DNA of 51,404 nucleotides from Dehalococcoidia bacterium. Its GTDB lineage: Bacteria > Chloroflexota > Dehalococcoidia > CAUJGQ01. Shown one piece after another: positions 17,703-33,219 of this stretch. The notes below the pieces were generated by a model. It was not told the origin of the DNA. It saw only the letters and a list, made by a program, of their open reading frames with translations, and did not search any database. A program made the translations under genes and the position numbers. The number at the start of each line of letters is the position of its first letter. Position 1 is the stretch's first letter. Where the stretch lies: positions 1 through 51,404 of the forward strand of contig DATGEL010000026.1 in NCBI GenBank assembly GCA_035310145.1, read 5' to 3'.

Positions 17703-17793
17703 GAATCGAGAGCATACCTTGGTCCGCTGGCGGAACGACGGTTGAGCCGGCACACCGAGCCACGCAGGGCCGGCGGACGGCGCCGCCGCTCGT

Positions 17794-17801
17794 GGTATCC
17801 T
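17794..17801 (+). promoter_or_regulatory. Possible extended -10 box before the carboxylase fusion
   Basis: TGGTATCCT contains an extended -10 (TG-n-TATCCT, box at 17796-17801). It would give a leader of about 155 bases before the GTG at 17963, long enough to hold regulation, but I see no conserved RNA element in it. Confidence 0.3.
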
Positions 17802-17962
17802 CGCCCCGTGCCGTGCCCGCCCGCCGCTCCACGCCTGGGCGCCGAGTTCAGCGTGCGTGAACGCGGGCCGGGCGGGCAGACGTTCGCCCGTATTCGTGAG
17901 CGCTCTGCCTGCCGCAACCTGCGCCGCGCGCTGCCCGGCGGCGTGCGCGAGTGAGGAACGCC

Positions 17963-20900
17963 GTGCCGTTGTCCAGGCTGCTCGTGGCCAACCGTGGTGA
18001 GATCGCCGTGCGCATCCTGCGTGCCGCCGGTGCGCTGGGCATCGCCACCGTCGCCGTTTACTCCGAGGACGACGCCCAGTCCCTGCACGTCCGCCGCGCC
18101 GACGAGGCCGTGCCGCTGCGCGGCGCCGGCGCGGCCGCCTACCTCGACGTGGAACAGCTCCTTGCCGCCGCCCACGTACAGGGCTGCGACGCGATTCATC
18201 CCGGCTACGGCTTTCTCAGCGAGCAAGCGGACTTCGCCCGCGCCTGCGCCGAAGCGGGCATCGCCTTCGTCGGTCCGGATGCCGAAGCGCTGGCGACGTT
18301 CGGCGACAAGATCCGTGCCCGCGCCCTGGCCGAGCGGCTCGGCGTACCGGTGCTGCGCGGCAGCGCGCGGCCCGTTTCGCTGGAGGAGTGCCGCGCCTTC
18401 TTCACCGCGCTGGGCGGCGGCGCCATGGTGATCAAGGCGGCCGCGGGCGGCGGCGGGCGCGGCATGCGCGTGGTCACGGCCGCGGCCGCGATCGACGAGG
18501 CGTACGCGCGCTGCCGCTCGGAGGCGCAGGCCGCCTTCGGCGACGGCCGCCTCTACGTCGAGCAGCTCCTGCCGTACGCCCGCCACGTGGAGGTCCAGGT
18601 CGTCGGCGACGGCAGCGCCGTCAGCCACCTCTGGGAGCGGGAGTGCAGCCTGCAGCGCCGGCACCAGAAGCTGGTGGAAGTCGCGCCCTCTCCCGCGCTC
18701 GCGCCCGCCCTGCGCGCGGCGCTCACCGGCGACGCCGTACGGCTTGCGGCGGCCGTCAACTACCGCGGCCTCGGCACCTGTGAGTTCCTCGTGGACGAGA
18801 CGCCCGGCGCCGAACCGGCCTACGCCTTCATCGAGGCGAACGCCCGCCTGCAGGTCGAGCACACGGTCACCGAAGAGGTGTTGCGCCTCGATCTCGTGCA
18901 GGCGCAACTGCAGATCGCCGCCGGCCGTTCGCTGGCGGCGCTCGGACTGGATCAAGCGCGCGTGCCGGCGCCACAGGGCCACGCCGTCGAGGTGCGCATC
19001 AACCTGGAGACGATCGACGCCGGCGGCGCGGTGCGCCCGAGCACCGGCACGCTGACGGTCTTCGAGCCGCCGAGCGGGCCGGGTATCCGCGTGGACAGCT
19101 GCGGCTACGCCGGGTATCGTACCAACCCGAACTTCGACTCGCTGCTCGCCAAGCTGATCTGCTGGTCGCCGTCGCCCCGCTTCGCCGACGCGGTCGCCGC
19201 CGCCTACCGCGCCCTCTGCGAGTTCCGCAGCGAAGGGGCGCAGACCAACATTCCCTTCCTGCAAAACCTGCTGCGTCACCCGGACGTGGCCGCCGGCAGG
19301 GTCAGCACCCGCTTTCTGGACGATCACCTGACGGAGTTCGTCGCCCGGAGCGCCGCGCACCCGAAGCGGTTCTTCGAGGCAGCGCCGGCGCCGAGCCGCG
19401 CCGGCGTACGGCTCGATGCCGCCGATCCGCTGGCGGTGCTGAGCTACGGCAGGTCCGGCCGTGCGGCGATCCCGTCGCCGGCTCTTCCAGACGGCGCCTT
19501 CGCCGGCGCCGCAGATGGGTCGAGCGGCACGATCGCAGTGCGCGCGCCGATGCAGGCGACGGTCGTGAGCGTCGACGTGCAGGCCGGGGAGCCGGTTCGC
19601 CGCGGACAGCAGTTGCTGGTGCTGAACGCGATGAAGATGGAGCACGTGATCCAGGCGCCGGGACCGGGGATCGTGCAGGCGATCGTCGTCGCGCCGGGGG
19701 ACACGCTGTACGAGGGCGACCCCCTCCTCTACCTGGAGGAGCGCGAGGCCGAGGCCGGCGAAGCGGACGCAGCCGGCCAGCAAGACCTCGATGCAATCCG
19801 CCCCGACCTGGCCGAAGTGCTGCGGCAACGCCAGGTCACCGTGGCGGACCCGGTCCGCCTCGAAGCGATCGAGAAGCGCCACGCGCGCGGCGGGCGCACG
19901 GCGCAGGAGAACGTGGAAGACCTCTGCGATCCCGGCAGCTTCGTGGCCTACGGCCGGCTGGCCGTGGGCATGGGGCTGCGCGGCGCCGCCGACGAGCTGC
20001 TCGCCTACGCCCCGGCCGACGGCATGGTCATGGGCCTGGGGCACGTGAACGGCGATCGCTTCGACGAGACGAAGTCGCGCTGTGTCGTGCTCGCCTACGA
20101 CTACACGGTGCTCGCCGGCACGCAGGGCGGCATGAACCACAAGATGCAGGACCGGATGCTGGACGTGGCCGCGCGCCTGCGCGCTCCTGTTGTGTACTTC
20201 ACCGAGGGCGGCGGCGGGCGCGCCGGCGGCGGCAGCCGCAACGCCACGGGGCAGGGCAGCAGCTCGGAGCGGGCGGGCGGCGGCGGCGGCCTGGCCACCC
20301 CGACCTGGAACAAGCTCGGCCGGCTGAGCGGGTTGGTGCCGATCATCGGCGTCAACGCGGGGCGCTCGTTTGCCGGCAACGCGGCGCTGCTCGGCTGCTG
20401 CGACGTGATCATCGCCACGGCCAACAGCAGCATCGGCATGGGCGGGCCGGCGATGGTGGAGGGTGGCGGCCTCGGCGTGTTTCGCCCGGAAGAGATCGGC
20501 CCGATGGCGGTGCAGGTGCCGAACGGGGTGGTCGACATCGCCGTCCGCGATGAAGCCGAGGCGGTGCAGGCCGCGAAGCAGTATCTCTCCTACTTCCAGG
20601 GTCCGCTGCAGCAATGGGAGTGCGCCGACCAGCGCCTGCTGCGTGGCCTGATCCCGGAGAACCGGCTGCGCATCTACGACGTGCGCAACGTGATCGAGAC
20701 GCTGGCCGACTCGGGCTCGGTGCTGGAGTTACGCCGCGGCTTCGGCCTGGCGATGATCACCGCCTTCATCCGCGTCGAAGGGCGGCCCGTGGGCGTCGTG
20801 GCCAACAACCCGGCGCATCTCTCGGGCGCGATCGACAGCGCGGCGGCGGACAAGGCGGCGCGCTTCATGACGATCTGCGACGCCTTCGACATCCCGCTGC

Positions 20901-21388
20901 TCTTCCTCTGCGACACGCCGGGGATCATGGTTGGCCCCGAGGCGGAGAAAGAAGCGACGGTGCGGCACAGCGCCCGCATGTTCGTGGTGGGCGCGAGCGT
21001 GACGGTCCCCTTCTTCACGATCATCCTGCGCAAGTCCTACGGCCTGGGCGCCCAGACGATGGGCGCCGGCAACCACAAGCTGCCGCTGTTCACGATCGCC
21101 TGGCCCACGGCGGAGTTCGGCGGCATGGGGCTGGAGGGCCAGGTGAAGCTGGGGCGCCGCCGCGAGCTGGAGGCGATCGCGGACCCGCGGGAACGCGCCG
21201 CCGCCTTCGAGCGCATGGTGGCCGCGGCCTACGAGCGCGGCCGGGCGCTGAACGCCGCGCACGTGTTCGAGGTGGAGGACGTGATCGACCCGGCGGAGTC
21301 GCGCCACTGGCTGCTCGCCGGCCTCAAAGCCAGCCCGCCCGTGCTCCCGCGCGACGGCAAGAAGCGGCCATGCATCGACCCGTGGTAG
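17963..21388 (+). CDS. Biotin carboxylase-BCCP-carboxyltransferase fusion (acyl-CoA carboxylase)
   Basis: This 1141-residue protein joins all parts of an acyl-CoA carboxylase. Residues 1-450 are biotin carboxylase (LLVANRGEIAVRILRAAG, the ATP-grasp loop AAGGGGRGM, NARLQVEHTVTEE). Residues 520-595 are the biotin carrier with the AMKMEH motif and biotin site at about Lys558. Residues 610-1141 are carboxyltransferase (GGMNHKMQDRMLDVAARL, DTPGIMVGPEAEK, LRKSYGLGAQTMG). A Gly/Ser/Arg-rich loop near 755-780 is an odd insert. It should carboxylate acetyl-, propionyl- or another acyl-CoA by itself. GTG at 17963 is preferred because AGGA lies 6 bases before it; the in-frame GTG at 17951 has no site. 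A convergent VOC gene follows with a hairpin between. Confidence 0.92.
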   Translation: MPLSRLLVANRGEIAVRILRAAGALGIATVAVYSEDDAQSLHVRRADEAVPLRGAGAAAYLDVEQLLAAAHVQGCDAIHPGYGFLSEQADFARACAEAGIAFVGPDAEALATFGDKIRARALAERLGVPVLRGSARPVSLEECRAFFTALGGGAMVIKAAAGGGGRGMRVVTAAAAIDEAYARCRSEAQAAFGDGRLYVEQLLPYARHVEVQVVGDGSAVSHLWERECSLQRRHQKLVEVAPSPALAPALRAALTGDAVRLAAAVNYRGLGTCEFLVDETPGAEPAYAFIEANARLQVEHTVTEEVLRLDLVQAQLQIAAGRSLAALGLDQARVPAPQGHAVEVRINLETIDAGGAVRPSTGTLTVFEPPSGPGIRVDSCGYAGYRTNPNFDSLLAKLICWSPSPRFADAVAAAYRALCEFRSEGAQTNIPFLQNLLRHPDVAAGRVSTRFLDDHLTEFVARSAAHPKRFFEAAPAPSRAGVRLDAADPLAVLSYGRSGRAAIPSPALPDGAFAGAADGSSGTIAVRAPMQATVVSVDVQAGEPVRRGQQLLVLNAMKMEHVIQAPGPGIVQAIVVAPGDTLYEGDPLLYLEEREAEAGEADAAGQQDLDAIRPDLAEVLRQRQVTVADPVRLEAIEKRHARGGRTAQENVEDLCDPGSFVAYGRLAVGMGLRGAADELLAYAPADGMVMGLGHVNGDRFDETKSRCVVLAYDYTVLAGTQGGMNHKMQDRMLDVAARLRAPVVYFTEGGGGRAGGGSRNATGQGSSSERAGGGGGLATPTWNKLGRLSGLVPIIGVNAGRSFAGNAALLGCCDVIIATANSSIGMGGPAMVEGGGLGVFRPEEIGPMAVQVPNGVVDIAVRDEAEAVQAAKQYLSYFQGPLQQWECADQRLLRGLIPENRLRIYDVRNVIETLADSGSVLELRRGFGLAMITAFIRVEGRPVGVVANNPAHLSGAIDSAAADKAARFMTICDAFDIPLLFLCDTPGIMVGPEAEKEATVRHSARMFVVGASVTVPFFTIILRKSYGLGAQTMGAGNHKLPLFTIAWPTAEFGGMGLEGQVKLGRRRELEAIADPRERAAAFERMVAAAYERGRALNAAHVFEVEDVIDPAESRHWLLAGLKASPPVLPRDGKKRPCIDPW

Positions 21389-21454
21389 GCGCGCTCTAGC
21401 CAGCGCGCGGCGCGGATCGTCGCCCGCTGGCGCCCGATCGCGACTCAACCGATT

Positions 21455-21480
21455 CCGCCGGCGCACCACCGTGCCGGCGG
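21455..21480. terminator. Hairpin between convergent genes
   Basis: CCGCCGGC and GCCGGCGG form a perfect 8-bp stem around a 10-base loop, between the carboxylase fusion (stop 21388) and the VOC gene (stop 21506). The symmetry would serve both strands. There is no T-tract. Confidence 0.4.
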
Positions 21481-21505
21481 GCGCGGAGGTCGGCGCCAGC
21501 GGCGA

Positions 21506-22363
21506 TCACACCGGCAATGCATCCTGGCCGCGCCGGTAGCTGCCGATCAGTTGCGCCGTGTTGCGGTTGACGAAGGCACGGCCGTGGAGCGGATGCTGCA
21601 GGCTGCGCACCTCGTGCTCCAGCTCGGCCACCTGCTCGCCCGTCGCGGGATCGACGATCTTCTGGAAGCGAAACTGGTGGTTGCGCAACTGCTCCGTCAC
21701 CAGCCCTTTCGCTTCCAGCGCGGCGTACGGAGCGGAGAAGTTGGCGATGTAGACCGCGATGTGGTGCCCGTCGTAGGCCGGGAGCGGCTCGGCGGTCTCG
21801 CGGAAGCGGAGCACCTGCCCGCGGCCGGCCGGAATGGTGGCCGCCGCATCGCCATCCTGCTGCACGGTTGCGGGCACGCGCATGACCTCCCGGTAGAAGC
21901 GGGCGATGCCGGCCGCCGCACCGGGCCTCACCAGGAACTCAACGTAGGGGATGCCCAGCTGCATCGCGCCGAAGGCCTCCTGCGGCGCGTAGCAACGGAA
22001 GTGATTCCCCCAGGGGCAGGTCGCTGACACATATTCCGCTTCGGCCGACCAGGCGAACCGCGTGCCGGCCAGCGGCGACTCGAGCCGCTGCAGCCGCTGC
22101 TGAAGCGCGCCAAGATCGGGCACGACGAGGCCGATATGCCCCGGAATCACCTGAACTCCCCTCGTCGGCAGGTGAAACTGCTGCTCGCCGGCGTTGGCCC
22201 ACATGTTCTCGATGCCGACCATCATGTACGGGTCGCGCGTCAGCCCCAGGCCGACGATGTAGAACTGGGTCGCCAGCGCCTGGTCTGGAACGGTGACGTT
22301 GACGTGTTCGAGCGAGACGATGTTGCCGATGTCTTCGGCCGCGGCCGCGCCGTCGCTTCCCAT
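21506..22363 (-). CDS. VOC-superfamily (glyoxalase/dioxygenase) protein
   Basis: This 285-residue protein has two vicinal-oxygen-chelate modules. The first begins SLEHVNVTVPD near residue 17 and continues to VVPDLGALQQRLQRL; the second begins around QLGIPYVEFLVRPG near 140 and includes DGHHIAVYIANFSAPYAAL. H20 and other His/Glu residues could bind a metal, but the standard extradiol ligand set was not traced. Family members are extradiol dioxygenases, glyoxalases, epimerases and resistance proteins; a lyase or dioxygenase role in catabolism is possible. GGGGGAG sits 5 bases before the ATG. A TATACT box lies at 22437-22442. Confidence 0.75.
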   Translation of the reverse strand: MGSDGAAAAEDIGNIVSLEHVNVTVPDQALATQFYIVGLGLTRDPYMMVGIENMWANAGEQQFHLPTRGVQVIPGHIGLVVPDLGALQQRLQRLESPLAGTRFAWSAEAEYVSATCPWGNHFRCYAPQEAFGAMQLGIPYVEFLVRPGAAAGIARFYREVMRVPATVQQDGDAAATIPAGRGQVLRFRETAEPLPAYDGHHIAVYIANFSAPYAALEAKGLVTEQLRNHQFRFQKIVDPATGEQVAELEHEVRSLQHPLHGRAFVNRNTAQLIGSYRRGQDALPV

Positions 22364-22436
22364 GCCACTCCCCCTCGTGTCAGCTCAATGCGTGCAGGTA
22401 GAACAGGGCGACCCGTTGCCGGCGTTACCAGCTGTC

Positions 22437-22442
22437 AGTATA
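22437..22442 (-). promoter_or_regulatory. -10 box of the VOC gene
   Basis: TATACT on the minus strand gives a leader of roughly 67 bases to the ATG at 22363. The -35 region (GGCTGC at 17 bases) is weak. Confidence 0.35.
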
Positions 22443-22715
22443 GACCGGCCGCGACCGTTGCAGCCGGACAGATCGCTGAAGGCGAGCGCAAACGACGGGG
22501 CGCTCTCCGACGACGAACGACGATCGCATGATCTACGCGCTCGAAGCCGTCCCCGCGGCACGGCCTGCCGGCATTTGCGGTACCTTGATGGCGATCGCGA
22601 ACGCGGCGTCGGACGCCGGCGCCCGCTCGCGTGCAGCGTTCCCCGTCCGGGTCTGCGAACCGCCGGTCCAGCGTCGCCGTGCACGGGCGACGCGGGCGGG
22701 AGAAGGAGCGAGGCC
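22443..22715. other. Intergenic control region between divergent units
   Basis: This non-coding stretch separates the VOC gene from the five-gene operon. A TACCTT box on the + strand at 22581-22586 is a possible -10 for the operon, with no good -35. Open frames crossing here have no recognisable similarity. I see no repeats or RNA genes. Confidence 0.3.
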
Positions 22716-23954
22716 GTGGATCTGACGATCTCCGCCGAAAGGCAGGCGCTGGTCGAGCAGGCGAGGGAACTGGCGGCCGGGTACCGCGCGGAGGCCTTCG
22801 CGCACGACCTCGGCGCCGAGTTCCCGGCGCTGGCGTTCGAGCGGCTGCGCGAGGCCGGCTTTCTGCGCTTGTCGCTGCCGCCGGAGCTGGGCGGCCAGGG
22901 CTTCTGGTCGCTTGTGCCGCCGCTCACCGACCGCTTCGTGCCGTACTACCAGGTGCTCGCCGCACTCGCGGCCGGCGACGCCTCCACCGGCCAACTGGTG
23001 CAGATCCAGACCCACGCCACCGGCATCATCGCCCGTCACGCCAACGCCGAGCAGCGCCAGCGCTTCCTCGACCCGGTGGCCCGGCATGGCGCCCTGATCT
23101 CCTCCTGCGGCAGCGAGGCCGACCCCGCGACCCCGAGCTCGCCCCGCGCCCCCAACAGCGAAATGTTGCCGGTGCCGGGCGGCTTCCGCGTCACCGCCGC
23201 CAAGCACTTCGCCTCGCTCGCGCCGGTCGCGGACTTCCACCTCGTCTACCTGCGTGCGCCGGGCATCGAAACCCCCGGCCAGGGCACCGTCTTGATCGTC
23301 GTGCCCAGGGATCACCCCGGCGTCTCGGTCGTGGACAACTGGGATACGCTGGGCATGCGAGCGACCATTAGCTGGCAGCTGAAGCTCGACGATGTCTTTG
23401 TCCCCTGGGAGAACGTGCTCGGCCAGCCGGGTGACTGGGTGCTCAACGACCCGCGCACCTTCACCCTCGCCTATGCCGCCAACTACCTCGGCACGGCCCA
23501 GGGCGCCTACGATTTCGTGCTGGCGCTCGTGCGCGAGCGGCCGGCGATGCTGGACGACGATGTCACCGCCTACATGCTCGGCGAGATGGACGCGGCCTTG
23601 CAGGCGGCCTCCGCCTCGATGAACTACGCCGCCTGGCTGTGGGAGCAGGGCCGCTTCACCGATGCGGAGATCGCCGGCGTGCGCGCCGTGCACACGGCCA
23701 AGCAGGCGGCGCTGACCGTGACCAACAAGGCGATCGAGGTCGTGGGGGCGCGCGGCACCTTCCGCCACCTGCCGCTTGAACGTGCGCTGCGCGACGTGCG
23801 CACCTTCACGCTGCACTCGCGCGACTCGCGCAACACGCGCCGCATCGCCGAAGCGGCGGTTAAGGGCGCCGGCCACTCGAAGGAGACGTACGGCCCGCTG
23901 GTCGAGCGCCTGACCTGGGAGCAGATCGGCATCATGCAGCCGGTCACCGTCTGA
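22716..23954 (+). CDS. Acyl-CoA dehydrogenase-fold flavoprotein (ACAD or DszC-like monooxygenase)
   Basis: This 412-residue protein has the three ACAD domains: an N-terminal helical part with LREAGFLRLSLPPELGG, a central beta part (SCGSEADP, GFRVTAAKHFASLAPVADF), and a C-terminal helical bundle. The end of the bundle reads ERALRDVRTFTLHSRDSRNTRRI. R-D-x-R-T-x-T-L-H is the pattern of DszC/flavin-dependent group D monooxygenases rather than of classic dehydrogenases, so oxygenation of a heterocycle or amine is as likely as beta-oxidation. GTG at 22716 is preferred because AAGGAG precedes it by 7 bases and the family start fits. It is the first gene of a tight operon reaching 27192. Confidence 0.8.
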   Translation: MDLTISAERQALVEQARELAAGYRAEAFAHDLGAEFPALAFERLREAGFLRLSLPPELGGQGFWSLVPPLTDRFVPYYQVLAALAAGDASTGQLVQIQTHATGIIARHANAEQRQRFLDPVARHGALISSCGSEADPATPSSPRAPNSEMLPVPGGFRVTAAKHFASLAPVADFHLVYLRAPGIETPGQGTVLIVVPRDHPGVSVVDNWDTLGMRATISWQLKLDDVFVPWENVLGQPGDWVLNDPRTFTLAYAANYLGTAQGAYDFVLALVRERPAMLDDDVTAYMLGEMDAALQAASASMNYAAWLWEQGRFTDAEIAGVRAVHTAKQAALTVTNKAIEVVGARGTFRHLPLERALRDVRTFTLHSRDSRNTRRIAEAAVKGAGHSKETYGPLVERLTWEQIGIMQPVTV

Positions 23955-23984
23955 GGCCGGCGGGCCCGTCTGTGGAGGGAGCTC

Positions 23985-25142
23985 ATGTCCGACGTCCCGG
24001 CCTACTTCGCCTACCTCAAGTCGCGGCAGGCGGCGATGGTGGAGGAGGTCAAGCGCTACTGCGCGATCGAGAGCGGTTCGCGCGACAAGGAGGGCATCGA
24101 CCGGGTGGGGCCGCTGGTCGCCGCCGCGTGGCAGGAGCTGGGCTTCACGACCGAGACGATCGCCCAGCCCGAGAGCGGCAACCACATGATCGCGCGACGC
24201 CCAGGCGCCGGCCGCGGCCGCCTGCTCTGCCACATGCACCTGGATACCACGCAGCCGCGTGGCACGATCATCGAGCACCCGATCGAAGAGCGGGACGGGC
24301 GGGTCTACGGGCCGGGCATCATCGACATGAAGGGCGGCTGGGTGGTCCTGCTCGGGGCGTTCCGGGCGCTGCGCAACGCCGGCTGGGATGGGCTCGAACG
24401 GGCCACGGTCTTTCTCTGCGGCGATGAGGAGCTGGGCAGCCCCAGCGGCCGGCCGCTGATCGAGGCCGAGGCGCGGGCGGCCGACTGGCAGGTGATCATG
24501 GAGCCGTCGCGCACCGGCCCGCTCGTCATCTCGCGCGGCGTGGTGGGCGCGATCGCCTTCACCATTTACGGCAACGCGGACGACCGCCCCGGCGAACAGG
24601 CGGCGAGCGCCATCGCCGAGGCCGCGCACAAGATCCAGGCGCTCGAGGCGCTCTCCGACCCGGAGCGGGGCACGCGCCTGCGGGTGGGCATCGTCGAGGC
24701 CGGAACGGCGCGCCAGGCCGTGCCCGTGAAGGCCTGGCTGAGCATCGACCTGCGCGCCCGCACGCAGGAGGACGCCGAGGCTCTGGTGCGCGGCGCGACG
24801 GCGATCGCCGCGCAGACCGTTGTTCCCGGCACCCGGACGGTGATCACCGGCGGCATCACCCGCCCGCTGTTCAAGCGCAATCCGGGGAACGTGCGCATGC
24901 TGGAGCTGGCGCAGGCGGCCGGGCGGGAGCTGGGGCTGGAGATCACGGAGGCGCCGATGAGCGTCGGCGGCTCCGACGGCAACTTCGGCGCGGCGATGGG
25001 TCTGCCCTCGCTGGACGGCCTGGGGCCGGCTGGCGGCGCGGAGAACAACCGCCAGTACATCCTCGCCGACTCCCTTCCCCAGAAGGCGGCGCTGCTGGCA
25101 GGCGTGATCAGCCGCCTGCCGGAGCTGCTGGAAACTCGCTGA
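23985..25142 (+). CDS. M20-family metallopeptidase/amidohydrolase
   Basis: This 385-residue protein is an M20 hydrolase of the ArgE/DapE/CPG2 kind that cleaves amide bonds, often N-acyl amino acids. The di-metal motifs are intact: LLCHMHLDT (His85, Asp87), GIIDMKGG (Asp114) and GDEELGS (Glu148 as base, Glu149 as ligand). The middle dimerisation domain begins near ISRGVVGAIAFTIYG. The last motif, usually G-x-H with the final metal His, reads AGGAENNRQYIL, so that ligand is not obvious. GGAGGGA precedes the ATG. It is 30 bases after the flavoprotein gene and 35 before the first deacetylase, in one operon. Confidence 0.88.
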   Translation: MSDVPAYFAYLKSRQAAMVEEVKRYCAIESGSRDKEGIDRVGPLVAAAWQELGFTTETIAQPESGNHMIARRPGAGRGRLLCHMHLDTTQPRGTIIEHPIEERDGRVYGPGIIDMKGGWVVLLGAFRALRNAGWDGLERATVFLCGDEELGSPSGRPLIEAEARAADWQVIMEPSRTGPLVISRGVVGAIAFTIYGNADDRPGEQAASAIAEAAHKIQALEALSDPERGTRLRVGIVEAGTARQAVPVKAWLSIDLRARTQEDAEALVRGATAIAAQTVVPGTRTVITGGITRPLFKRNPGNVRMLELAQAAGRELGLEITEAPMSVGGSDGNFGAAMGLPSLDGLGPAGGAENNRQYILADSLPQKAALLAGVISRLPELLETR

Positions 25143-25177
25143 GGCGCCGGGTGAGAACCGGCAGGGAGAGCGCCGCC

Positions 25178-26020
25178 ATGAAGTACCGCTGGCCCAACGG
25201 CGCCCGCTGCGTCGTAATGCTCACGTTCGACTGCGACGGGCCGGGCAACGAGATCGGCCGCGGGCTCGATCCCGCCGGCGCCCACTCCATCGGCCGCTAC
25301 TCGCCGCGCCGCGGCCTGCCGCGCGTGCTCGAGATGGCCGACCGGCAGCAGATCCCCATCACCTGCTTCATGTGCGGCCACGACGCCGAGCTGCACCCCG
25401 AGTACATCTCGCTCATCGGCCAGGCGAAGCAGGAGATGGCCGCGCACGGCTACGTGCACGAGGGCTGGGCCATGCCGCCGGACGAGGAGATCGCGCTCCT
25501 GCGCAAGACCCACCGCATCCTCAGCGAACTGTCCGGCACGGCTCCCGTCGGCTGGCGGGCGCCCGGCGGGCAGAAAAGCAACGTGACGCTGCCGACCCTG
25601 CGGGAGCTTGGCTACGTCTACGACACGAGCGACAAGGACTTCGATGGTCCTTATCCGGCCGTGGTCGGCGCCGGGCCGTCCACCGAGATGGTCTCGCTGC
25701 CGAACATCACCTCCACGCTCGACGACGCCTACATGTACGGCACGGGGCGGCTCTCGCCCGAGGAGATCCTCGAGCTGTGGAAGGGCGAGTTCGATGCCCT
25801 CTACCACGGCGCCGGCTACTTCGTGATGACCCTGCACCCGCGCGGCGGCCGCGGCGGCTCCGGTGTGCCCGGGCGCCTGCGCGCGATCGACCGCCTCGTC
25901 TCGTTCATCAAGACCTATCCGGACGTCCACTTCACCAACATGCGTGACCTGGCGCGCTGGTGCCTCGACGCGGAGAGCGGCGTGATGCAGGCGACGGCCC
26001 ATCTGGGAGGCCGGCCATGA
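25178..26020 (+). CDS. Polysaccharide deacetylase (NodB-fold) hydrolase
   Basis: This 280-residue NodB-fold protein resembles the PuuE allantoinase/cyclic-imidase branch more than cell-wall deacetylases: it begins MKYRWPNGARCVVMLTFDCDGPG with no signal peptide. The metal and catalytic set is complete: TFDCDG (two Asp), AAHGYVHEGW (two His), and GWRAPGG (Arg and the groove motif). Substrates in this branch include allantoin, imides and formylated amines. The start at 25178 follows a GGGAGAG site; an in-frame GTG at 25151 is less likely. It ends inside the ATGA overlap with a second NodB-fold gene, so the two proteins are probably made in equal amounts. Confidence 0.85.
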   Translation: MKYRWPNGARCVVMLTFDCDGPGNEIGRGLDPAGAHSIGRYSPRRGLPRVLEMADRQQIPITCFMCGHDAELHPEYISLIGQAKQEMAAHGYVHEGWAMPPDEEIALLRKTHRILSELSGTAPVGWRAPGGQKSNVTLPTLRELGYVYDTSDKDFDGPYPAVVGAGPSTEMVSLPNITSTLDDAYMYGTGRLSPEEILELWKGEFDALYHGAGYFVMTLHPRGGRGGSGVPGRLRAIDRLVSFIKTYPDVHFTNMRDLARWCLDAESGVMQATAHLGGRP

Positions 26021-26844
26021 CCATCACCGACTTCTGGCCGCCGGGCAGCCAGGCCGCCGCCGCGATCAGCGTCAATCTCGAGGCGGAGAGCGTCGATCGG
26101 CGCGAGTCGGAGCTGCCGCTGTGGGGCCGGCGCTCGCACGGCCGCTACGCCGCCCAGGCCGGCGCCTTCAACCTGCTGGACCTGTTCGAGCGGCAGTCGG
26201 TGCATGCCACCTTCTTCATCAACGGCTGGGACGCCCGGCGCTACCCCGCCCTGATGGAGCGGATCGCCGCCGCCGGGCACGAGGTCGCGGCCTCCGGCTG
26301 CCTGCATGAAGACTTCAGCGCCCTTTCGGCCGAACAGCAGCACGCCGTGCTGGAACAGTCCGAGGCGGCGCTCAACTCCGTGTTCGGCAGCCGGCCCGCC
26401 GGATTCCGCGCCCCCGACCGGCTGATGACGAGCGAGACCCACGCCGTGCTCGCCGCCCGCGGCTACGCCTACGACTCCAGCTGCAGCGACGACGACGTTC
26501 CCTACGTCATCGATGCCGGGCAGGGGCGCTCGCTGCTCGAGATCCCCGTGCAGGAGCCGTACTCGGACCGCTGCTACTACGAGGCGCACCGCACGCCGGC
26601 AGTGGTGCGCTCGGCGCTCGCGGACCTGTTCGACGCCGCCTACGACGAGGGCGCGCTCTTCACGCTCATGATCAGCCCGCGTGGCGATGTGGGCTCCGGG
26701 CGCGGCCTGCGCGCCCGCGTGGTGGAGTCCGTGATCCAGGCGATGAAGGAACGCCCCCGCCTCTGGCTGGCGACGTGTGGCGACCTCGCCGGCTGGATGC
26801 AGCGAACGCGCGGCCCGGCAGAGATCCCCGGTGCAGCGCGCTGA
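26017..26844 (+). CDS. Second NodB-fold protein, altered metal site
   Basis: This 275-residue paralogue starts within the ATGA overlap with the first deacetylase. The fold is kept (HATFFINGWDARRYP, GFRAPDR), but the catalytic motifs differ. The usual T-F-D-x-D is VNLEAES, replacing both aspartates by glutamates, and the usual H-x-x-x-H motif is ASGCLHEDF, where the first His is Ser. It may be a non-catalytic partner of the first deacetylase or use another metal arrangement. A NWA-type allantoinase plan is possible. Translational coupling supports a heteromeric complex. The downstream ABM gene follows after 30 bases. Confidence 0.7.
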   Translation: MTITDFWPPGSQAAAAISVNLEAESVDRRESELPLWGRRSHGRYAAQAGAFNLLDLFERQSVHATFFINGWDARRYPALMERIAAAGHEVAASGCLHEDFSALSAEQQHAVLEQSEAALNSVFGSRPAGFRAPDRLMTSETHAVLAARGYAYDSSCSDDDVPYVIDAGQGRSLLEIPVQEPYSDRCYYEAHRTPAVVRSALADLFDAAYDEGALFTLMISPRGDVGSGRGLRARVVESVIQAMKERPRLWLATCGDLAGWMQRTRGPAEIPGAAR

Positions 26845-26874
26845 CGGCGGATCAAGCGCATGGAGGGAAACGGC

Positions 26875-27192
26875 ATGATCACGATGTGGGTGAAGGTGCG
26901 GATTAAGCCCGAGCTGCGGCGACGCTTCCTCGAAGCGATCGAGGTCGATGCCCTCGGCTCGGAGCGGGATGAGCCGGGCTGCATGCGCTTCAACGTCCTG
27001 CAGGACGCGCAGGACAACGCCGTCTATTACTTCTACGAGGTCTACAAGGACGAGGCGGCGCTGGAGGCGCACCGCCGCATGCCGCACTACGAGGTCTGGC
27101 GCGGAGCAGCCGATACCCTCGACGGCCCCGTCGAAGCGACCCGTTGCCAAACGGTGTTCCCGGAAGACAGCGCCTACTGGAGCAAAAAGTAG
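26875..27192 (+). CDS. Antibiotic biosynthesis monooxygenase (ABM) domain protein
   Basis: This 105-residue protein has the ABM fold: MITMWVKVRIKPELRRRFLEAI at the start, EPGCMRFNVLQDAQD and VYYFYEVYKDEAALEAHR in the middle. Members include cofactor-free monooxygenases (quinol oxidation), heme-degrading IsdG-like enzymes and small structural subunits such as LsrG. It is the last gene of the operon. ATG at 26875 is preferred because GGAGGG lies 7 bases upstream; an ATG at 26860 overlaps that site. The stop is followed by a 194-base gap and a promoter for the next module. Confidence 0.85.
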   Translation: MITMWVKVRIKPELRRRFLEAIEVDALGSERDEPGCMRFNVLQDAQDNAVYYFYEVYKDEAALEAHRRMPHYEVWRGAADTLDGPVEATRCQTVFPEDSAYWSKK

Positions 27193-27386: not shown

Positions 27387-29120
27387 ATGGACCCATGGAT
27401 CGTCGGCAGCAAGCCGAGCGCACGTTATCCGCTGTGGACGCGCGCCAACGTCGGCGAGGTGTTTCCCGACCCGGTCGCACCGCTGACGTTCAGCCTGCTG
27501 ATGAGAGATGTCGTCGAAGGCGCCTGGCGTGACGCGCTCGTGCAGATGGGCGCCTTCACCTACGACGAGTTCGCCCCCGGCGAGATGGAGACGCTCGGCG
27601 TCTTCGGCGGCTACTGCTACCTCAACGCCGCCGTTACCCGCATCCTCGGCGAGCGGGCGCCCGGCCTCTCCGCCCAGGCGATGGACGACCTCTTCTACGG
27701 CTCGCAGCCGGGCGTTCCGCCCTACGAGCCGGCGCCAGGCGACCACAACGAGGAACGCACCGCCGCCATTGGCGAGACCTTCGCCTGGGTGATGAGCGCC
27801 ACGCAGCTCGACGCGCCCGCCGCCAGCGCGGCGCGCGTCGCGACGCTGCGCGACAAGCGGCCGGACCTCGACGCGATGAGCAATCCCCAGCTCTGGGCCT
27901 ACGCCCGCGACCTGCTGCTTGCATACTTCCGTCAGCTCTTCTCCGAGCACATCTACATCACCTTCCTCAGCCCGATCCCGGTCGGCGTCCTCGCCCAGAT
28001 CTGCGCGGCGGTGAACCGGCCGGAGGACGCGATGCGCGTGATCTCCGGTGTGGGCGACGTGGAATCGGCGGCGCCGTCGCTGGCGATGTGGCAGCTCAGC
28101 CGTCAGGTGGCGGCCGATCCGGCGCTGATGGCGGCCTTCGACGCGGGCGTGCCGGGCCTGCTCGACCGCCTCGCCAAGGGCGGACCGGCCGGTGAGAAAT
28201 TCCTCGCCGACTTCAGCGGCTTCCTGCGCACATTCGGCTCGCGCGGGCCGAACGAGTGGGAGATGCGTAACCACACCTGGGAGACGCGGCCCGAGCTGGC
28301 GCTGGCGGCGATCGACCGCATGCGCCTCGCCGGTCCCGAGGCCGCGCCCGCTGCCCGCAACCGCCAGATGGCGGCCGAGCGCGAGCGCACCGTCGCCGAG
28401 ATCTCGGCCATGCTCGCCGGCGACGCCGCGACGCAGGGCGCCTTCCAGGCGGCCGCGAAGGCTGCCATGCTCTTCCAGGCCGGGCGCGAGCGCACCAAGA
28501 CCAGCGCGATCAAGCCGATCCACGAGGCGCGCATGGCGATGCACACGATCGGCCGGCGCCTGGTGGCCGAGGGCAAGGCCGACGAAGTGAGCGACTTCGG
28601 CCTCGTGCTGGCGACCGAGATGGACGGCTGGATCGCCGATCCGGCCTCGCTCAGAGACGAGATTCGCCGCCGCCGCGCGCTGTTCCACGATTACGCCGCT
28701 CTGCGCGAGCCGTTCGTCTTCGCCGGCACGCAGCCCGACCCCGACACCTGGCCGCCGCGCGAGGAGAACTCGGTGAAGCCCGTCGCCCCCGGCGAAGTGC
28801 TCACCGGCTTCCCCGGCTGCCCCGGCCAGGTGACCGGCGTGGCGCGCGTCGTGCTCGACCCGCTGGACCCGACCGCGCTCAACCCCGGCGAGATCCTCGT
28901 GGCGCCGATCACCGACCCGTCGTGGACGCCGCTGTTTGTCGCCGCCGGCGGCGTGATCGTCGATGTCGGCGCGGCGCAGAGCCATGCCATGATCGTCAGC
29001 CGCGAGCTGGGCATTCCCTGCGTGCCCTCGGTCACCGACGCGACACGGCGCATCCCCGACGGCGCCACCGTGCTGGTGAACGGCGATGCCGGCACGGTGA
29101 CCATTCTCTCTCTGACCTGA
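27387..29120 (+). CDS. PEP-utilising-enzyme-like protein with a C-terminal phosphohistidine domain
   Basis: This 577-residue protein has a long helical N-terminal part (residues 1-470) of unknown detail, beginning with DPWIVGSKPSARYPLW and containing TFSLLMRDVVEGAW. Its C-terminal 100 residues are the swivelling domain of PEP synthase/PPDK: FPGCPGQVTGVARVVLDP, GEILVAPITDPSWTPLF, then AQSHAMIVSREL with the candidate phospho-acceptor His533. No ATP-grasp and no PEP barrel are present. This plan, with the His close to the C-terminus, matches the large subunit of phenylphosphate synthase and the C-terminal part of rifampin phosphotransferase. The next gene supplies an ATP-grasp. GGGGAGG precedes the ATG, and the promoter lies at 27271-27300. 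Confidence 0.75.
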   Translation: MDPWIVGSKPSARYPLWTRANVGEVFPDPVAPLTFSLLMRDVVEGAWRDALVQMGAFTYDEFAPGEMETLGVFGGYCYLNAAVTRILGERAPGLSAQAMDDLFYGSQPGVPPYEPAPGDHNEERTAAIGETFAWVMSATQLDAPAASAARVATLRDKRPDLDAMSNPQLWAYARDLLLAYFRQLFSEHIYITFLSPIPVGVLAQICAAVNRPEDAMRVISGVGDVESAAPSLAMWQLSRQVAADPALMAAFDAGVPGLLDRLAKGGPAGEKFLADFSGFLRTFGSRGPNEWEMRNHTWETRPELALAAIDRMRLAGPEAAPAARNRQMAAERERTVAEISAMLAGDAATQGAFQAAAKAAMLFQAGRERTKTSAIKPIHEARMAMHTIGRRLVAEGKADEVSDFGLVLATEMDGWIADPASLRDEIRRRRALFHDYAALREPFVFAGTQPDPDTWPPREENSVKPVAPGEVLTGFPGCPGQVTGVARVVLDPLDPTALNPGEILVAPITDPSWTPLFVAAGGVIVDVGAAQSHAMIVSRELGIPCVPSVTDATRRIPDGATVLVNGDAGTVTILSLT

Positions 29121-29212
29121 CTTCGCCCGCCGCGGGGCGTGGCGTGGTTCTTTCGGATGCATGGATGGCGCTGAGACACGGCAGCGACCTCGATCAGGCA
29201 GGACCAGCGGCG

Positions 29213-31426
29213 ATGAACGCCGATTCGCAACCGGCGCCGGCGGTCGTCGCCTTTGATCAGCCGCTGCCCGAGGGGCACGACCCGGCGGCGCTGCTCGGCG
29301 GCAAGGGCGCCGGGCTGGCGGAGATGACGCGCGGGCTTGGCCTGCCTGTGCCGCCCGGCTTCACGATCACCACGGCGGTCTGCCGGCGCTATCTGGGCTC
29401 CGGCTGGCCCGACGACCTGGACGAGCAGATCGCCGCGCAGCTCGAACGGCTGGCCGCGCACACGGGTCGCCGCTTCGGCGATCCGGCGGCGCCGCTGCTC
29501 GTCTCCGTGCGCTCGGGCGCGCCCGTCTCCATGCCGGGGATGATGGACACGCTGCTGAACGTCGGCATCACGCCGGCGATCCGCGACCGGCTCGCGGCGC
29601 AGAGCGGCAGCCCCGCCTTCGCCGCCGACACCTGGCTGCGCTTCTCTCGCATGTATGCCGAGATCGTGCTCGGCCTTCCCGAAGCCGAGATCGGCGCCGC
29701 CGCGGCAGCAGACGGCAGCGTCAGCGGCGGGCTCGCCGCCGCCGAACGTGTCCGCCGGCTGGCGGCCGAGCGCGTGCCGCCCGGTATTCCGGGCGGGCCG
29801 CATGCACAGCTGCGTGGCGCAATCGAGGCCGTCTTCCGCTCCTGGAACTCCGAACGCGCCCGCGTCTTCCGCGCGCGGGAGAACATTTCCGATCAGCTCG
29901 GCACGGCCGTGACCGTGCAGGCGATGGTGTTCGGCAACCTGGACGACCGCTCCGGCACCGGCGTCGCCTTCACGCGCAACCCGGCCACGGGCGAGGCGGC
30001 GCCCTACGGCGACTACCTGCCGCGCGCCCAGGGCGAGGACGTGGTCGCCGGCACGCACACGGTCTCCGGCCTGGACACGCTGCAGCGGCAGCTCCCCGAG
30101 GTCTACGCCGAACTGATCGAGACGCTGCGCACGCTCGAACGGCATTACCGCGACCTCTGCGACGTGGAGTTCACGGTCAGCGGCGGCCGCCTCTGCATCC
30201 TGCAGACGCGCATCGGCCGGCGCAGCCCCCTCGCCGCCGTGCGCATCGCCGTGGCCATGGCGGAAGAGCCGGACTTTCCCCTCAGCAAGGCCGAGGCGGT
30301 GGCGCTCATCGACGACGGCGTGCTGCAGCAGCTCGCGGCCGCGGTGCGCGTCGACCCGGAGGCGGCGCCGATAGCGAGTGGCCTCGCGGCCTCACCCGGC
30401 GCCGGCGCGGGCGTGCTCTGTTGCGACCCCGGCCGCGCCGCTGAGCTGAGCGCGAAGGGCGTTGCCGTGGTGCTCGCCCGTGAGCAGACCTCGCCGGCCG
30501 ACGTGCACGGCATGGTGCGGGCGGCCGGCATCGTCACCGCGAGCGGCGGCGTCGCCAGCCACGCCGCGGTCGTCGCCCGAAGCTGGGGCATCCCCGCCGT
30601 CACCAGCGTTGCGGGCGCACAGATCGACGACGCGGGCCTGCGCCTGGGCGACGCGCTGATCGCCGAGGGTGCGCTGGTGACGGTGGACGGCGGCACGGGC
30701 CGGCTGTTCCTGGGCGACTGCCGCGCGGCCGGGGCGGCCGAGATCGCCGAGCTGCGCACGCTGCGCCGCTGGCGGGTAGAGCTGAGCGCGGAGCCGGCGC
30801 CGGCCGCAAGCGCCGCCGCGCCGGGCCGCGAGCAGGTGACGCTGCTTGAACTGGCGCGCACAGTGCAGTTGAAGGGCCTCTGCCCACCGGCGCGCGCCGC
30901 CGCCGCACTCGGCGCGACGCAGCCGGCGATCGAAGCCTGCATCGCGGGGAACGCCGCCAGCTTCCGCGCAACGCCGCGCGGGGTAATGCTCACGCCGGAC
31001 GGCCGCGCCTGGCTCAGCGAGCAACTCGCCGCCGAGCGCGCCGCCGTCGCCGCGGATGCAATCGAGTCCTGCTACGGGCGCTTTCTGCTGCTCAACGCCC
31101 GTTTCAAGCAGCTCGTGAGCGACTGGCAGCAGTCATCCGCCGGCGCGCAGACGGAAGCTGCCTTCGCCGGCCTCGTGCGCACGCTGGGCGCCCTGCACGC
31201 CGAGCTGCGGCCGCTGCTGGAGGAAACCGCGGCGCATCTCTCCCGGCTCGGTGGCTATACGAACCGCTTCGAGCGTGCCCTGGCCGCGCTGCGCGCCGGC
31301 GACGCCTCGATGCTCGCCTCGCCGTTGAAAGACAGCTATCACACGGTCTGGTTCGAGTACCACGAGGAGCTGATCGCCCTCTGCGGCCGCGACCGCGCCG
31401 CCGAGGAACGCGCCCACGGCGGCTGA
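29213..31426 (+). CDS. Pyruvate phosphate dikinase-like protein lacking the PEP barrel
   Basis: This 737-residue protein has the PPDK N-terminal ATP-grasp (GGKGAGLAEMTRGLGLPVPPG, SVRSGAPVSMPGMMDTLLN, GVAFTRNPATGE) and the central swivel domain with GGVASHAAVVAR (His450). A true PPDK is about 870-900 residues and ends in a TIM barrel that binds pyruvate/PEP. Here the last 215 residues instead contain a winged-helix-like segment (LARTVQLKGLCPPARAAAALG, ...LTPDGRAWL) and a helical domain (YGRFLLLNARFKQLVSDWQ). It probably phosphorylates a histidine from ATP but cannot make pyruvate/PEP. It follows the His-domain protein by 92 bases, and AGGA precedes the ATG at 29213. An ATG at 29165 is in frame without a site. 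Confidence 0.8.
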   Translation: MNADSQPAPAVVAFDQPLPEGHDPAALLGGKGAGLAEMTRGLGLPVPPGFTITTAVCRRYLGSGWPDDLDEQIAAQLERLAAHTGRRFGDPAAPLLVSVRSGAPVSMPGMMDTLLNVGITPAIRDRLAAQSGSPAFAADTWLRFSRMYAEIVLGLPEAEIGAAAAADGSVSGGLAAAERVRRLAAERVPPGIPGGPHAQLRGAIEAVFRSWNSERARVFRARENISDQLGTAVTVQAMVFGNLDDRSGTGVAFTRNPATGEAAPYGDYLPRAQGEDVVAGTHTVSGLDTLQRQLPEVYAELIETLRTLERHYRDLCDVEFTVSGGRLCILQTRIGRRSPLAAVRIAVAMAEEPDFPLSKAEAVALIDDGVLQQLAAAVRVDPEAAPIASGLAASPGAGAGVLCCDPGRAAELSAKGVAVVLAREQTSPADVHGMVRAAGIVTASGGVASHAAVVARSWGIPAVTSVAGAQIDDAGLRLGDALIAEGALVTVDGGTGRLFLGDCRAAGAAEIAELRTLRRWRVELSAEPAPAASAAAPGREQVTLLELARTVQLKGLCPPARAAAALGATQPAIEACIAGNAASFRATPRGVMLTPDGRAWLSEQLAAERAAVAADAIESCYGRFLLLNARFKQLVSDWQQSSAGAQTEAAFAGLVRTLGALHAELRPLLEETAAHLSRLGGYTNRFERALAALRAGDASMLASPLKDSYHTVWFEYHEELIALCGRDRAAEERAHGG

Positions 31427-31560: not shown

Positions 31561-32610
31561 ATGAGCCTAATCGTCGAGCAGCAGGGGGCATGCAGCCCGA
31601 CCTACTTCTACTTCTACCAGTCCACTGACGGCGGCCAGAGCTACCAGTACTTCTATGGCGGGACCGCCAACCAACTCGCCATGACGTATGGCAATTTCGC
31701 AGCCGGGACGAACTTCTACTACGCCGTCTACGCCTGCGATGCCTATTGCCCTAGCGTTCCGGGCTACGTCACCGTCACCGACAATGGCCCCAGCACTACC
31801 AACGCGTTCAACTACGTCAGCGGCCAGCAGTGGTTCTACCAGAACACCGGGTTCGTGAACAACGGCGGCGGCTACAGTGGCTTCTACCTCTCTAGCTCCC
31901 CGAGCGGTGCCGACCGGTACCTCGCCGTCCTCCAAACGCCGCAGCCGGGAACCAACCTCACCAACTTGGGCGAAGCGTTTACGTACATCGACGCGTACAC
32001 AGACAACGACGTCTTCTATCAGGTCGGGTACGCGCAGAACGCGGCCGGCTTCGAGTGGTTCGCGGCCACCACCTACCAGGGCCAGGGTTACAACACGACT
32101 ACCCGCCAGTGGAACGGCGTCGGCTGCGCTTCGGGTACATCGCGCTACGACTACTACCCGGCAGCTACGGGCGGAATCACCGTACGGTGCAATCTGTCCG
32201 GAACCGCGCCCAACACGCAGCAGACGTACGACGTGCACAGCTACACCAACGTCGTGTACACCGGCGTGAACGGGAGCTATATCCTGGACGCGACCGAGAG
32301 TAACCTCGGCTACATGTACCGAGCCGCGGCGGTCCAAGAGGCAGTCGGTGGCGCTCAGAGCCCGCAAACGACCTTCGCCCAAACCTCACCAACCAAGGCC
32401 ACAGGCGACATGGTTGAGTCGTGGTTCCAGTACAACGGCCAGAACTTCTCCACCATCGTGTCCGACTACTTTGTTAACAGCGATGTCTTCGACAGCAACC
32501 GCAACACCACCTCGCCTGAGTGCGGTCTGCCGAACGTCGCCAGCATCCAGCGCGAGACACCCGCCTATCCGTGGGGTATGCGCTGGGACGCTGGGCTACC
32601 GGACTGCTAG
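31561..32610 (+). CDS. Secreted-type protein of unknown function, 5' end apparently missing
   Basis: I do not recognise this 349-residue protein. It is rich in Tyr, Asn, Thr, Ser and Gly and has Cys residues that could pair, like mature extracellular proteins, yet there is no signal peptide. From the ATG at 31561 the reading frame is open further upstream to at least 31441, giving GLIWDQASSCSTSTPKAYFS just before the ATG, in the same style as the rest. No ATG, GTG or TTG lies upstream in that stretch. I infer a 5' truncation, with the lost end replaced by the PPDK-like gene's neighbourhood. Its base and codon use is less GC-rich than that of the neighbours, suggesting transfer. Confidence 0.5.
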   Translation: MSLIVEQQGACSPTYFYFYQSTDGGQSYQYFYGGTANQLAMTYGNFAAGTNFYYAVYACDAYCPSVPGYVTVTDNGPSTTNAFNYVSGQQWFYQNTGFVNNGGGYSGFYLSSSPSGADRYLAVLQTPQPGTNLTNLGEAFTYIDAYTDNDVFYQVGYAQNAAGFEWFAATTYQGQGYNTTTRQWNGVGCASGTSRYDYYPAATGGITVRCNLSGTAPNTQQTYDVHSYTNVVYTGVNGSYILDATESNLGYMYRAAAVQEAVGGAQSPQTTFAQTSPTKATGDMVESWFQYNGQNFSTIVSDYFVNSDVFDSNRNTTSPECGLPNVASIQRETPAYPWGMRWDAGLPDC

Positions 32611-32661
32611 GCATGGAGAGAGCAGCCGCAGCCGATGAGGTCGGCGTTCCGGGGTGAGACC

Positions 32662-33219
32662 ATGAGATTCGCCATCTGGTATACGTCACTGCTCTGGCTG
32701 CCGCTGCTCTTGTTCCTCGCCGGCGGCAGAGCAGCGCCACACACTGGCGTCGCGCAGACAGCGACGCCCACCGGTGGCCCACCGCCGCTGCTGATTCCCT
32801 ACTCCGCTGGCTGGAATCTAATTTCCGTTACCCAGGCTGGGGCGGGGATACCCGAAAACGTCCAACTCTATACGCTCGCGCCGGGTGGGATGACGTACGC
32901 GGCCGTTTCTCCGACCGATACCAAGCCGGGGGTCGGCTATTGGGCGTACTTCCCCACCGACAATCATGTGTTGCTCATTCCGCAGACACTCTGCCAGTCC
33001 TGCGGCGCGCCCTTGTCCCCCATCACGCTCCCTGCCGGCCAGTGGGTGATGACTGGCGACCCTATCACGGCGCCAGTCACGCTCACCGGTGCCGACGCCG
33101 TTTACGTGTACGGCGCAAGCACAGGGCAGTACCAGCAATCGACGCGGCTCTACCCCGGCCAGGGAGCGTTCGCCTATTCCGCAGCAGGTAGTAAACTAAC
33201 CTTCAGTTACGGTCCATGA
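32662..33219 (+). CDS. Small secreted protein with two GWNL-type modules
   Basis: This 185-residue protein has a clear signal peptide (MRFAIWYTSLLWLPLLLFLAG, then small residues). The mature part holds two related modules: PYSAGWNLISV...YTLAPGGMTY...GVGYWAYF and LPAGQWVMTGDP...VYVYGASTGQYQ...GQGAFAYS. Each has a W followed by hydrophobics, a Y-x-Y hairpin and a G-x-G/Y-aromatic turn. I have seen such repeats in extracellular proteins of Chloroflexota, but no function is established here. The start at 32662 is preferred over ATG 32635 because the hydrophobic core fits and GGGGTGAG precedes it. It is 51 bases after the truncated gene and shares its composition, so both may have arrived together. 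Confidence 0.65.
   Translation: MRFAIWYTSLLWLPLLLFLAGGRAAPHTGVAQTATPTGGPPPLLIPYSAGWNLISVTQAGAGIPENVQLYTLAPGGMTYAAVSPTDTKPGVGYWAYFPTDNHVLLIPQTLCQSCGAPLSPITLPAGQWVMTGDPITAPVTLTGADAVYVYGASTGQYQQSTRLYPGQGAFAYSAAGSKLTFSYGP

Follow-up and report, generated by a model that had tools for sequence, protein, structure and literature searches.

A short PPDK-type protein and an RPH-like acceptor as the probable halves of a small-molecule dikinase in a Dehalococcoidia bacterium

Two adjacent genes, P0001 and P0003, on the 51,404-nucleotide contig DATGEL010000026.1 of a Dehalococcoidia bacterium (assembly GCA_035310145.1; the whole stretch is hereafter called the window) probably code for an ATP-dependent small-molecule dikinase in two halves, with a donor of the pyruvate phosphate dikinase (PPDK) type, an acceptor of the rifampin phosphotransferase (RPH) type and a product that feeds a catabolic or detoxifying route. 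The acceptor subunit, or 'H' component, P0001 (27387–29120, plus strand; 577 residues) and the donor P0003 (29213–31426, plus strand; 737 residues) run in the same direction with 92 bp between them. Third-position GC contents of 0.92 and 0.87, respectively, indicated that both open reading frames are genuine coding genes. For P0003 the ATG at 29213 was preferred as the start; the in-frame ATG at 29165 is a possible alternative, whereas the program-made open reading frame from 28922 is too long. A first-pass annotation of this DNA had described phosphoenolpyruvate (PEP)-synthase-type swivel domains in both proteins, candidate phospho-histidines at His533 of P0001 and His450 of P0003, an ATP-grasp domain in the second protein and a PEP/pyruvate barrel in neither. 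All of this held: PF00391 matched both proteins (E 7e-21 and 1e-19), both histidines lie at these positions and are invariant in the family alignments, and a Pfam scan found PPDK_N only in P0003.

As judged from its predicted structure, P0001 is an RPH without the ATP-grasp domain, consisting of a substrate-binding domain and a phospho-His swivel. The AlphaFold model, built with 40 homologues (mean predicted local distance difference test (pLDDT) score 93.5), aligned with residues 315–867 of RPH-Lm in a fold search (508 residues aligned, Z 35.9, 19% identity), and the remaining matches covered the swivel only, which argues for this assignment. P0001 thus starts at the equivalent of RPH residue 315, and it has no PPDK_N domain. 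The alternative named in the first-pass annotation, a rifampin phosphotransferase that has lost its ATP-grasp, therefore fits the protein well. Consistently, the top match of P0001 in a PDB sequence search was rifampin phosphotransferase (E 4.5e-22, residues 255–574). The NCBIfam models reached it well below their cut-offs: the best match, RedH, spanned residues 15–574, PRK06241 spanned 16–575, and the third-best, PigC, and RPH spanned 232–574; the rifampin phosphotransferase model NF041857 scored 127 bits against a cut-off of 999. P0001 was rejected as a full rifampin phosphotransferase, in which the ATP-grasp, substrate and swivel domains share one chain.

The RPH-type substrate-binding domain occupies about residues 1–460 of P0001. 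It is followed by the swivel (residues 469–577; 28791–29117, plus strand; Pfam E 7.4e-21), which folds like the swivels of RPH, PPDK and Enzyme I and contains the sole Pfam domain of the protein, the PEP-utilizer swivel at residues 499–569. A phmmer alignment to 5fbs identified Arg367-Glu368 (28485–28490, plus strand) as the counterpart of the catalytic pair Arg666-Glu667 of RPH-Lm. This pair is required for the second phosphotransfer in RPH, and both the R666A and the E667A mutant fully lost rifampin inactivation (PMC4844700). The candidate phospho-carrier His533 (28983–28985, plus strand) aligns with the catalytic His of RPH and PpsA and is invariant in alignments A1 and A5; Arg367-Glu368, like His533, does not vary across the 40 homologues. 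P0001 thus has the RPH-type substrate domain and the C-terminal swivel with catalytic His expected of the acceptor of a two-component dikinase.

P0003 has the composition of a short PPDK. Its match to PDB PPDK (E 4e-112) was restricted to residues 14–522, and its score of 473 bits with NCBIfam PRK05878 (NF004531) exceeded the curated cut-off of 456; we take the mycobacterial namesake of that model to be of the Rv1127c type. The PPDK-type ATP-grasp domain (PF01326; 29288–30253, plus strand) retains the ATP-site residues K31, R100, D317, E319, Q331 and R333 in the PPDK alignment, and these residues are invariant, together with His450, in six short PPDKs. The following swivel (30368–30721, plus strand) matches the isolated PPDK phosphoryl-carrier domain 2fm4, and within it the candidate phospho-carrier His450 (30560–30562, plus strand) lies in the motif T442-x-x-GG-x-x-S-H and aligns with the PPDK catalytic His455. 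An ATP-grasp and a swivel of the PPDK type without a PEP/pyruvate barrel define the PRK05878/VadK-type short PPDKs, and P0003 has this plan. In the barrel-less PPDK VadK (Rv1127c) of M. tuberculosis, the swivel His422 is autophosphorylated in vitro (PMC13400623), and by analogy P0003, with its motif and ATP site intact, may autophosphorylate on His450. A canonical pyruvate phosphate dikinase was ruled out, as the C-terminal PEP/pyruvate barrel is absent from both P0001 and P0003. Nor was a canonical PPDK or PEP synthase (PEPS) with a barrel found nearby, which disposes of the concern that such a protein is always encoded beside the pair; the genome's full-length PPDK (contig C120) and a PEPS-type ATP-grasp lie on other contigs.

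Beyond the swivel, P0003 carries a tail module (about residues 546–737; 30833–31420, plus strand), which the AlphaFold model (mean pLDDT 89.8) showed as a MarR-type winged helix and then a helical bundle with end DSYHTVWFEYHEELI. The winged helix predicted in the first-pass annotation was borne out by this model, residues 17–89 of which matched MarR-type winged helices in a fold search (Z about 12). No family for the tail was found in Pfam, at cut-off, or in NCBIfam, and fold searches with its helical half gave no clear match. The tail is a separate gene beside a short PPDK in plasmids of Rhodococcus sp. ZPP, Diaphorobacter HDW4B, M. avium and M. branderi. In Rhodococcus sp. LW-XY12 it forms the C-terminal part of one chain with an AMP-binding CoA ligase, encoded next to the PPDK (L083 8282–10453). 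With a PPDK and a CoA ligase as its fusion partners, the tail is unlikely to bind DNA despite its winged-helix fold; it is probably an adaptor that docks the donor to the acceptor. VadK was solubilised by co-expression with its operon neighbour Rv1126c, and the two were separated using 2 M NaCl (PMC13400623). Judged by its gene position, Rv1126c would be a member of the tail family.

Lone tail-family genes also occur away from any PPDK in Acidimicrobiia and other Actinomycetota (L236–L243, L245), mostly near dapA, an RNase J-like metallo-hydrolase and FtsK as read from the sequence, which suggests a second, housekeeping role. A tail gene is present in 45 of 49 acceptor-bearing genomes, but we rejected this count as proof of co-dependence in Acidimicrobiia and did not use it for the pair, since the gene sits at the dapA/RNase J locus and the count is largely phylogenetic.

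The two genes are found together beyond the window. All sampled close orthologues of P0001 (64–75% identity) lie beside a P0003 orthologue, contrary to the possibility that homologues are usually unlinked. In L090 (75%) and G059 (68%) the donor is adjacent; in G001 (69%) it is adjacent and broken by the contig end; in L091 (64%) it lies about 1 kb away on the opposite strand. More distant orthologues (about 46%) in L109 and L113 also adjoin a donor, with the order reversed in L109. In L090, L091, L109 and L113 at most one gene separates donor and acceptor. Because the two genes are also neighbours in other genomes with close homologues, their arrangement in the window is not mere chance. A further group of Chloroflexota (families f79, f77, f67 and f64) encodes a PPDK–tail fusion in 21 genomes, all of which have an RPH-like acceptor; acceptor and donor–tail lie on one contig within 18 kb in 13 of the 21. 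This conserved association between P0003 orthologues and acceptors is genomic, and it places the ATP-grasp in a separate, associated protein, as in a two-component dikinase.

The triad of RPH-like acceptor, short PPDK and tail was also detected in Diaphorobacter, Halieaceae, Nocardia, Gordonia, several rhodococci and plasmids of M. avium and M. branderi. It stands in catabolic clusters of Chloroflexota, Rhodococcus, Nocardia, mycobacterial plasmids and Proteobacteria, in reordered, split and fused variants. Twelve plasmid records contain a short PPDK and a tail, and in eight of them an acceptor lies within about 3.5 kb, the acceptor match being weak in one of the eight, N. resinovorum (L274). 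Three of these eight loci have a split acceptor, made up of a substrate-domain gene and a free swivel protein of about 120–150 residues reminiscent of HPr, beside the tail and short PPDK (L272 8341–9863; L275 6710–8646; L276 6796–7248; swivel match weak in L275 and L276). In a tree of 56 acceptors, triad-linked acceptors fell in both deep branches and required at least seven changes of state, indicating that the donor has been combined repeatedly with different acceptors. The neighbours of acceptor genes include oxygenases, P450s, short-chain dehydrogenases/reductases (SDRs), enoyl-CoA hydratases, CoA ligases, and SurE or histidine phosphatases. The oxygenases, SDRs, CoA enzymes and phosphatases among them suggest, by analogy with the Hpe pathway (PMC9618137), that a substrate may be transiently phosphorylated in the course of its catabolism.

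Seven of the Chloroflexota clusters with an acceptor and a donor–tail within 18 kb were read, and these seven also contain molybdenum-hydroxylase-like genes. The genes of the conserved cluster at L229–L235, typed by reading the sequence and not by scanning, are an RPH-like acceptor, a GntR-type regulator, xanthine-dehydrogenase-type hydroxylase genes, a PPDK–tail and an MBL-fold protein, and together they look like an undescribed catabolic pathway.

We propose the following mechanism for the pair. P0003 would bind ATP in its PPDK-type ATP-grasp, autophosphorylate His450 on its own swivel and release AMP. The phosphoryl group would then reach His533 of P0001, either through a relay from His450 to His533 like that of Enzyme I and HPr or by direct delivery from the ATP-grasp. 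We lean slightly towards the relay, because both swivels have been retained and split systems have a free second swivel. The P0001 swivel would carry the phosphoryl group to the RPH-type substrate pocket, where Arg367-Glu368 would place it so that it can pass to a hydroxyl group on a small organic compound; a catabolic or detoxifying pathway would then take up the phosphorylated product. The P0003 tail would act as the adaptor that docks donor to acceptor. Lacking an ATP-grasp, P0001 cannot use ATP alone; likewise, the acceptor subunits of HpeHI, CreHI and PpsAB need a separate ATP-grasp protein (PMC12167813).

These three dikinases are the closest described systems, and the pair has in common with them an acceptor made of an RPH substrate domain and a swivel, a separate ATP-grasp protein, a catabolic setting and, as proposed for the pair, a phospho-His mechanism. 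The domain plan of P0001 is also that of HpeH, the acceptor in HpeHI (PMC12167813). The donors differ: in HpeHI, CreHI and PpsAB the donor is an ATP-grasp protein of about 340–375 residues without a swivel and with a PEPS-like motif, whereas P0003 is of the PPDK type and has its own candidate phospho-His and a tail. RPH, like RedH and PigC, shares with P0001 the fold over the whole length of the latter and the catalytic Arg-Glu and His, but RPH is one fused chain with its own N-terminal ATP-grasp, which P0001 lacks, and we found no evidence linking P0001 to rifampin. On the donor side, VadK resembles P0003 as a barrel-less PPDK with ATP-grasp and swivel, and is encoded beside the small partner Rv1126c; the M. 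avium and M. branderi plasmids, where a short PPDK adjoins a tail-family gene, offer a comparable arrangement. No RPH-like acceptor has been described for VadK, which is a proposed regulator of methylcitrate-cycle enzymes, whereas in the window the tail is fused to the donor and an RPH-like acceptor is adjacent. The proposed relay is analogous to that from Enzyme I to HPr in the phosphotransferase system (PTS), in that phosphate would pass between two phospho-His domains, with the difference that the energy comes from PEP there and would come from ATP here.

Several observations weigh against a dikinase formed by P0001 and P0003. The activity of both proteins, and of the homologues of the pair, is a prediction, and P0001 has V525 and A529 where the usual T/SxxGGxxxH motif has T/S and the second G. 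A short PPDK, a tail gene or both lie within 10 kb of only 11 of the 80 P0001-type acceptor loci in the genome collection, and the remaining loci are mostly from Acidimicrobiia. There the tail gene stands alone at the dapA/RNase J locus, the P0001 relatives have no linked donor, and no PPDK_N protein could be detected in 7 of 24 genomes; some P0001-type acceptors must therefore have another donor or none. The genome of the window itself encodes a stand-alone PpsB/HpeI-type ATP-grasp protein, without barrel or swivel and scoring like the ATP-grasps of PEPS and RPH (contig C78; L084 8745–10031), and at least four further RPH-like acceptors (C68, L009 4110–5768; C3, L010 9994–11814; C32, L014 4615–6396; C135, L015 3–1664, cut by the contig end), none of them beside a PPDK-type donor, so that cross-talk is possible. 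Contigs C4 and C10 of this genome each end in a similar swivel fragment. The C78 gene has no acceptor gene nearby and is divergent from a neighbour resembling a flavin reductase.

P0001 might accordingly be charged by the C78 protein, with P0003 acting as a regulatory kinase like VadK and lying nearby either by coincidence or for reasons of regulation. C78 is of exactly the type that serves HpeH, CreH and PpsA (PMC12167813), several acceptor paralogues in the genome have no PPDK alongside, and a role as a regulatory histidine kinase has been suggested for VadK (PMC13400623). We nevertheless regard this explanation as unlikely: the C78 gene is unlinked to P0001 whereas P0003 is linked in every close orthologue, and a stand-alone ATP-grasp of this type is absent, as judged by open-frame length, in 46 of 49 genomes with P0001-type acceptors. 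Somewhat less probable still is that P0001 works by itself as a transphosphorylase or ligase-like enzyme, comparable to HpeH alone or to the condensing enzymes PigC and RedH, with P0003 independent of it. HpeH alone does move phosphate from 4-phosphoacetophenone to acetovanillone (PMC12167813), RedH and PigC supplied two of the three best NCBIfam matches, and several Acidimicrobiia have P0001-type genes without any PPDK_N protein; but the known transphosphorylation is a partial reaction of a two-component kinase, and the pairing with an ATP-using phospho-His protein is conserved in Chloroflexota. That P0003 is a relic PPDK, or donates to an unrelated protein, and adjoins P0001 by descent only is very improbable. 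In its favour, a full-length PPDK is encoded on C120; against it, the ATP-site residues and His450 of P0003 are all intact and invariant, and the two genes are linked again in different phyla despite changes in their order, strand and fusion.

The first-pass annotation had likened the pair to phenylphosphate synthase, which converts phenol to phenylphosphate. The functions are split alike between two proteins, the His position is similar, and phosphorylation of phenols is established for the superfamily (PMC12167813). We compared P0001 with PpsA of a genuine phenylphosphate synthase operon (ppsABC with ppcBDAG) on plasmid pAZKH of Azoarcus sp. KH32C. Overall identity was 22%, with local similarity confined to the swivel (46% over 117 residues), whereas PpsA and a CreH-like protein share 44%. 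PpsA, CreH and HpeH share about 45% identity with one another and make up a clade (PMC12167813) that does not include P0001. In the 56-acceptor tree, PpsA/CreH and P0001 fell on opposite sides of the deepest branch (99% support in the Shimodaira–Hasegawa-like approximate likelihood ratio test, SH-aLRT), and the RPH Arg-Glu site is Val-Glu in PpsA and the CreH-like protein and Arg-Glu in P0001. P0003 was likewise rejected as a PpsB/HpeI-type partner, a single ATP-grasp without swivel, as it has an ATP-grasp, the His450 swivel and the tail. No phenylphosphate carboxylase or UbiD was found in a scan of ten window genes, eight of them just upstream of the pair (16653–27189), the rest of the window and the genome not being searched for these. 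A strict phenylphosphate synthase is therefore highly unlikely. The likeness of P0001 to that enzyme is one of mode of action, not of membership: the domain plan noted earlier is indeed that of PpsA and HpeH, but a specific kinship is not supported. Similarly, the suggestion that the pair moves phosphate from ATP to a phenol-like or other hydroxy compound stands as far as a two-protein phospho-His phosphotransferase with P0003 providing the ATP-grasp is concerned, but no result singled out phenol as the substrate.

Although two-component dikinases have been described, as have RPH and VadK, a winged-helix-tailed, PPDK-derived donor serving an RPH-like acceptor would be new. As the first-pass annotation had supposed, we found no description of such a pairing in the literature searched. 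The two-component small-molecule dikinases were recognised as a subfamily in 2025 from three examples with one donor type. The results here indicate a second donor type, which derives from PPDK, has a phospho-His of its own and is combined with acceptors on either side of the deepest split in the RPH-like family. They also offer an annotation for short genes on catabolic plasmids labelled 'pyruvate, phosphate dikinase', 'PEP-utilizing enzyme' or 'MarR/hypothetical', and a testable idea of why truncated PPDKs such as VadK retain an active phospho-His without a pyruvate site. More tentatively, the triad could be a phosphorelay in its own right, driven by ATP, serving the catabolism of small molecules and running through two phospho-histidines in succession, with a free second-swivel carrier in some bacteria; one donor might then serve several acceptors, as in the PTS, and VadK/Rv1126c might be the donor half of a system whose acceptor has gone unrecognised.

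Other parts of the window are of separate interest. Directly after the pair, at 31561–33219, lie two open reading frames of deviating codon-position composition, the first of which (349 residues, rich in Tyr, Ser and Gly) has no Pfam match. Upstream, positions 17951–21388 encode a 1145-residue fusion of biotin carboxylase, biotin carrier and carboxyltransferase, resembling a long-chain acyl-CoA carboxylase. The region 23985–26844 holds an unusual combination, an M20 peptidase gene and, after it, two NodB-type polysaccharide deacetylase-like genes in a row, whose products might have a small amide or ureide as their substrate.

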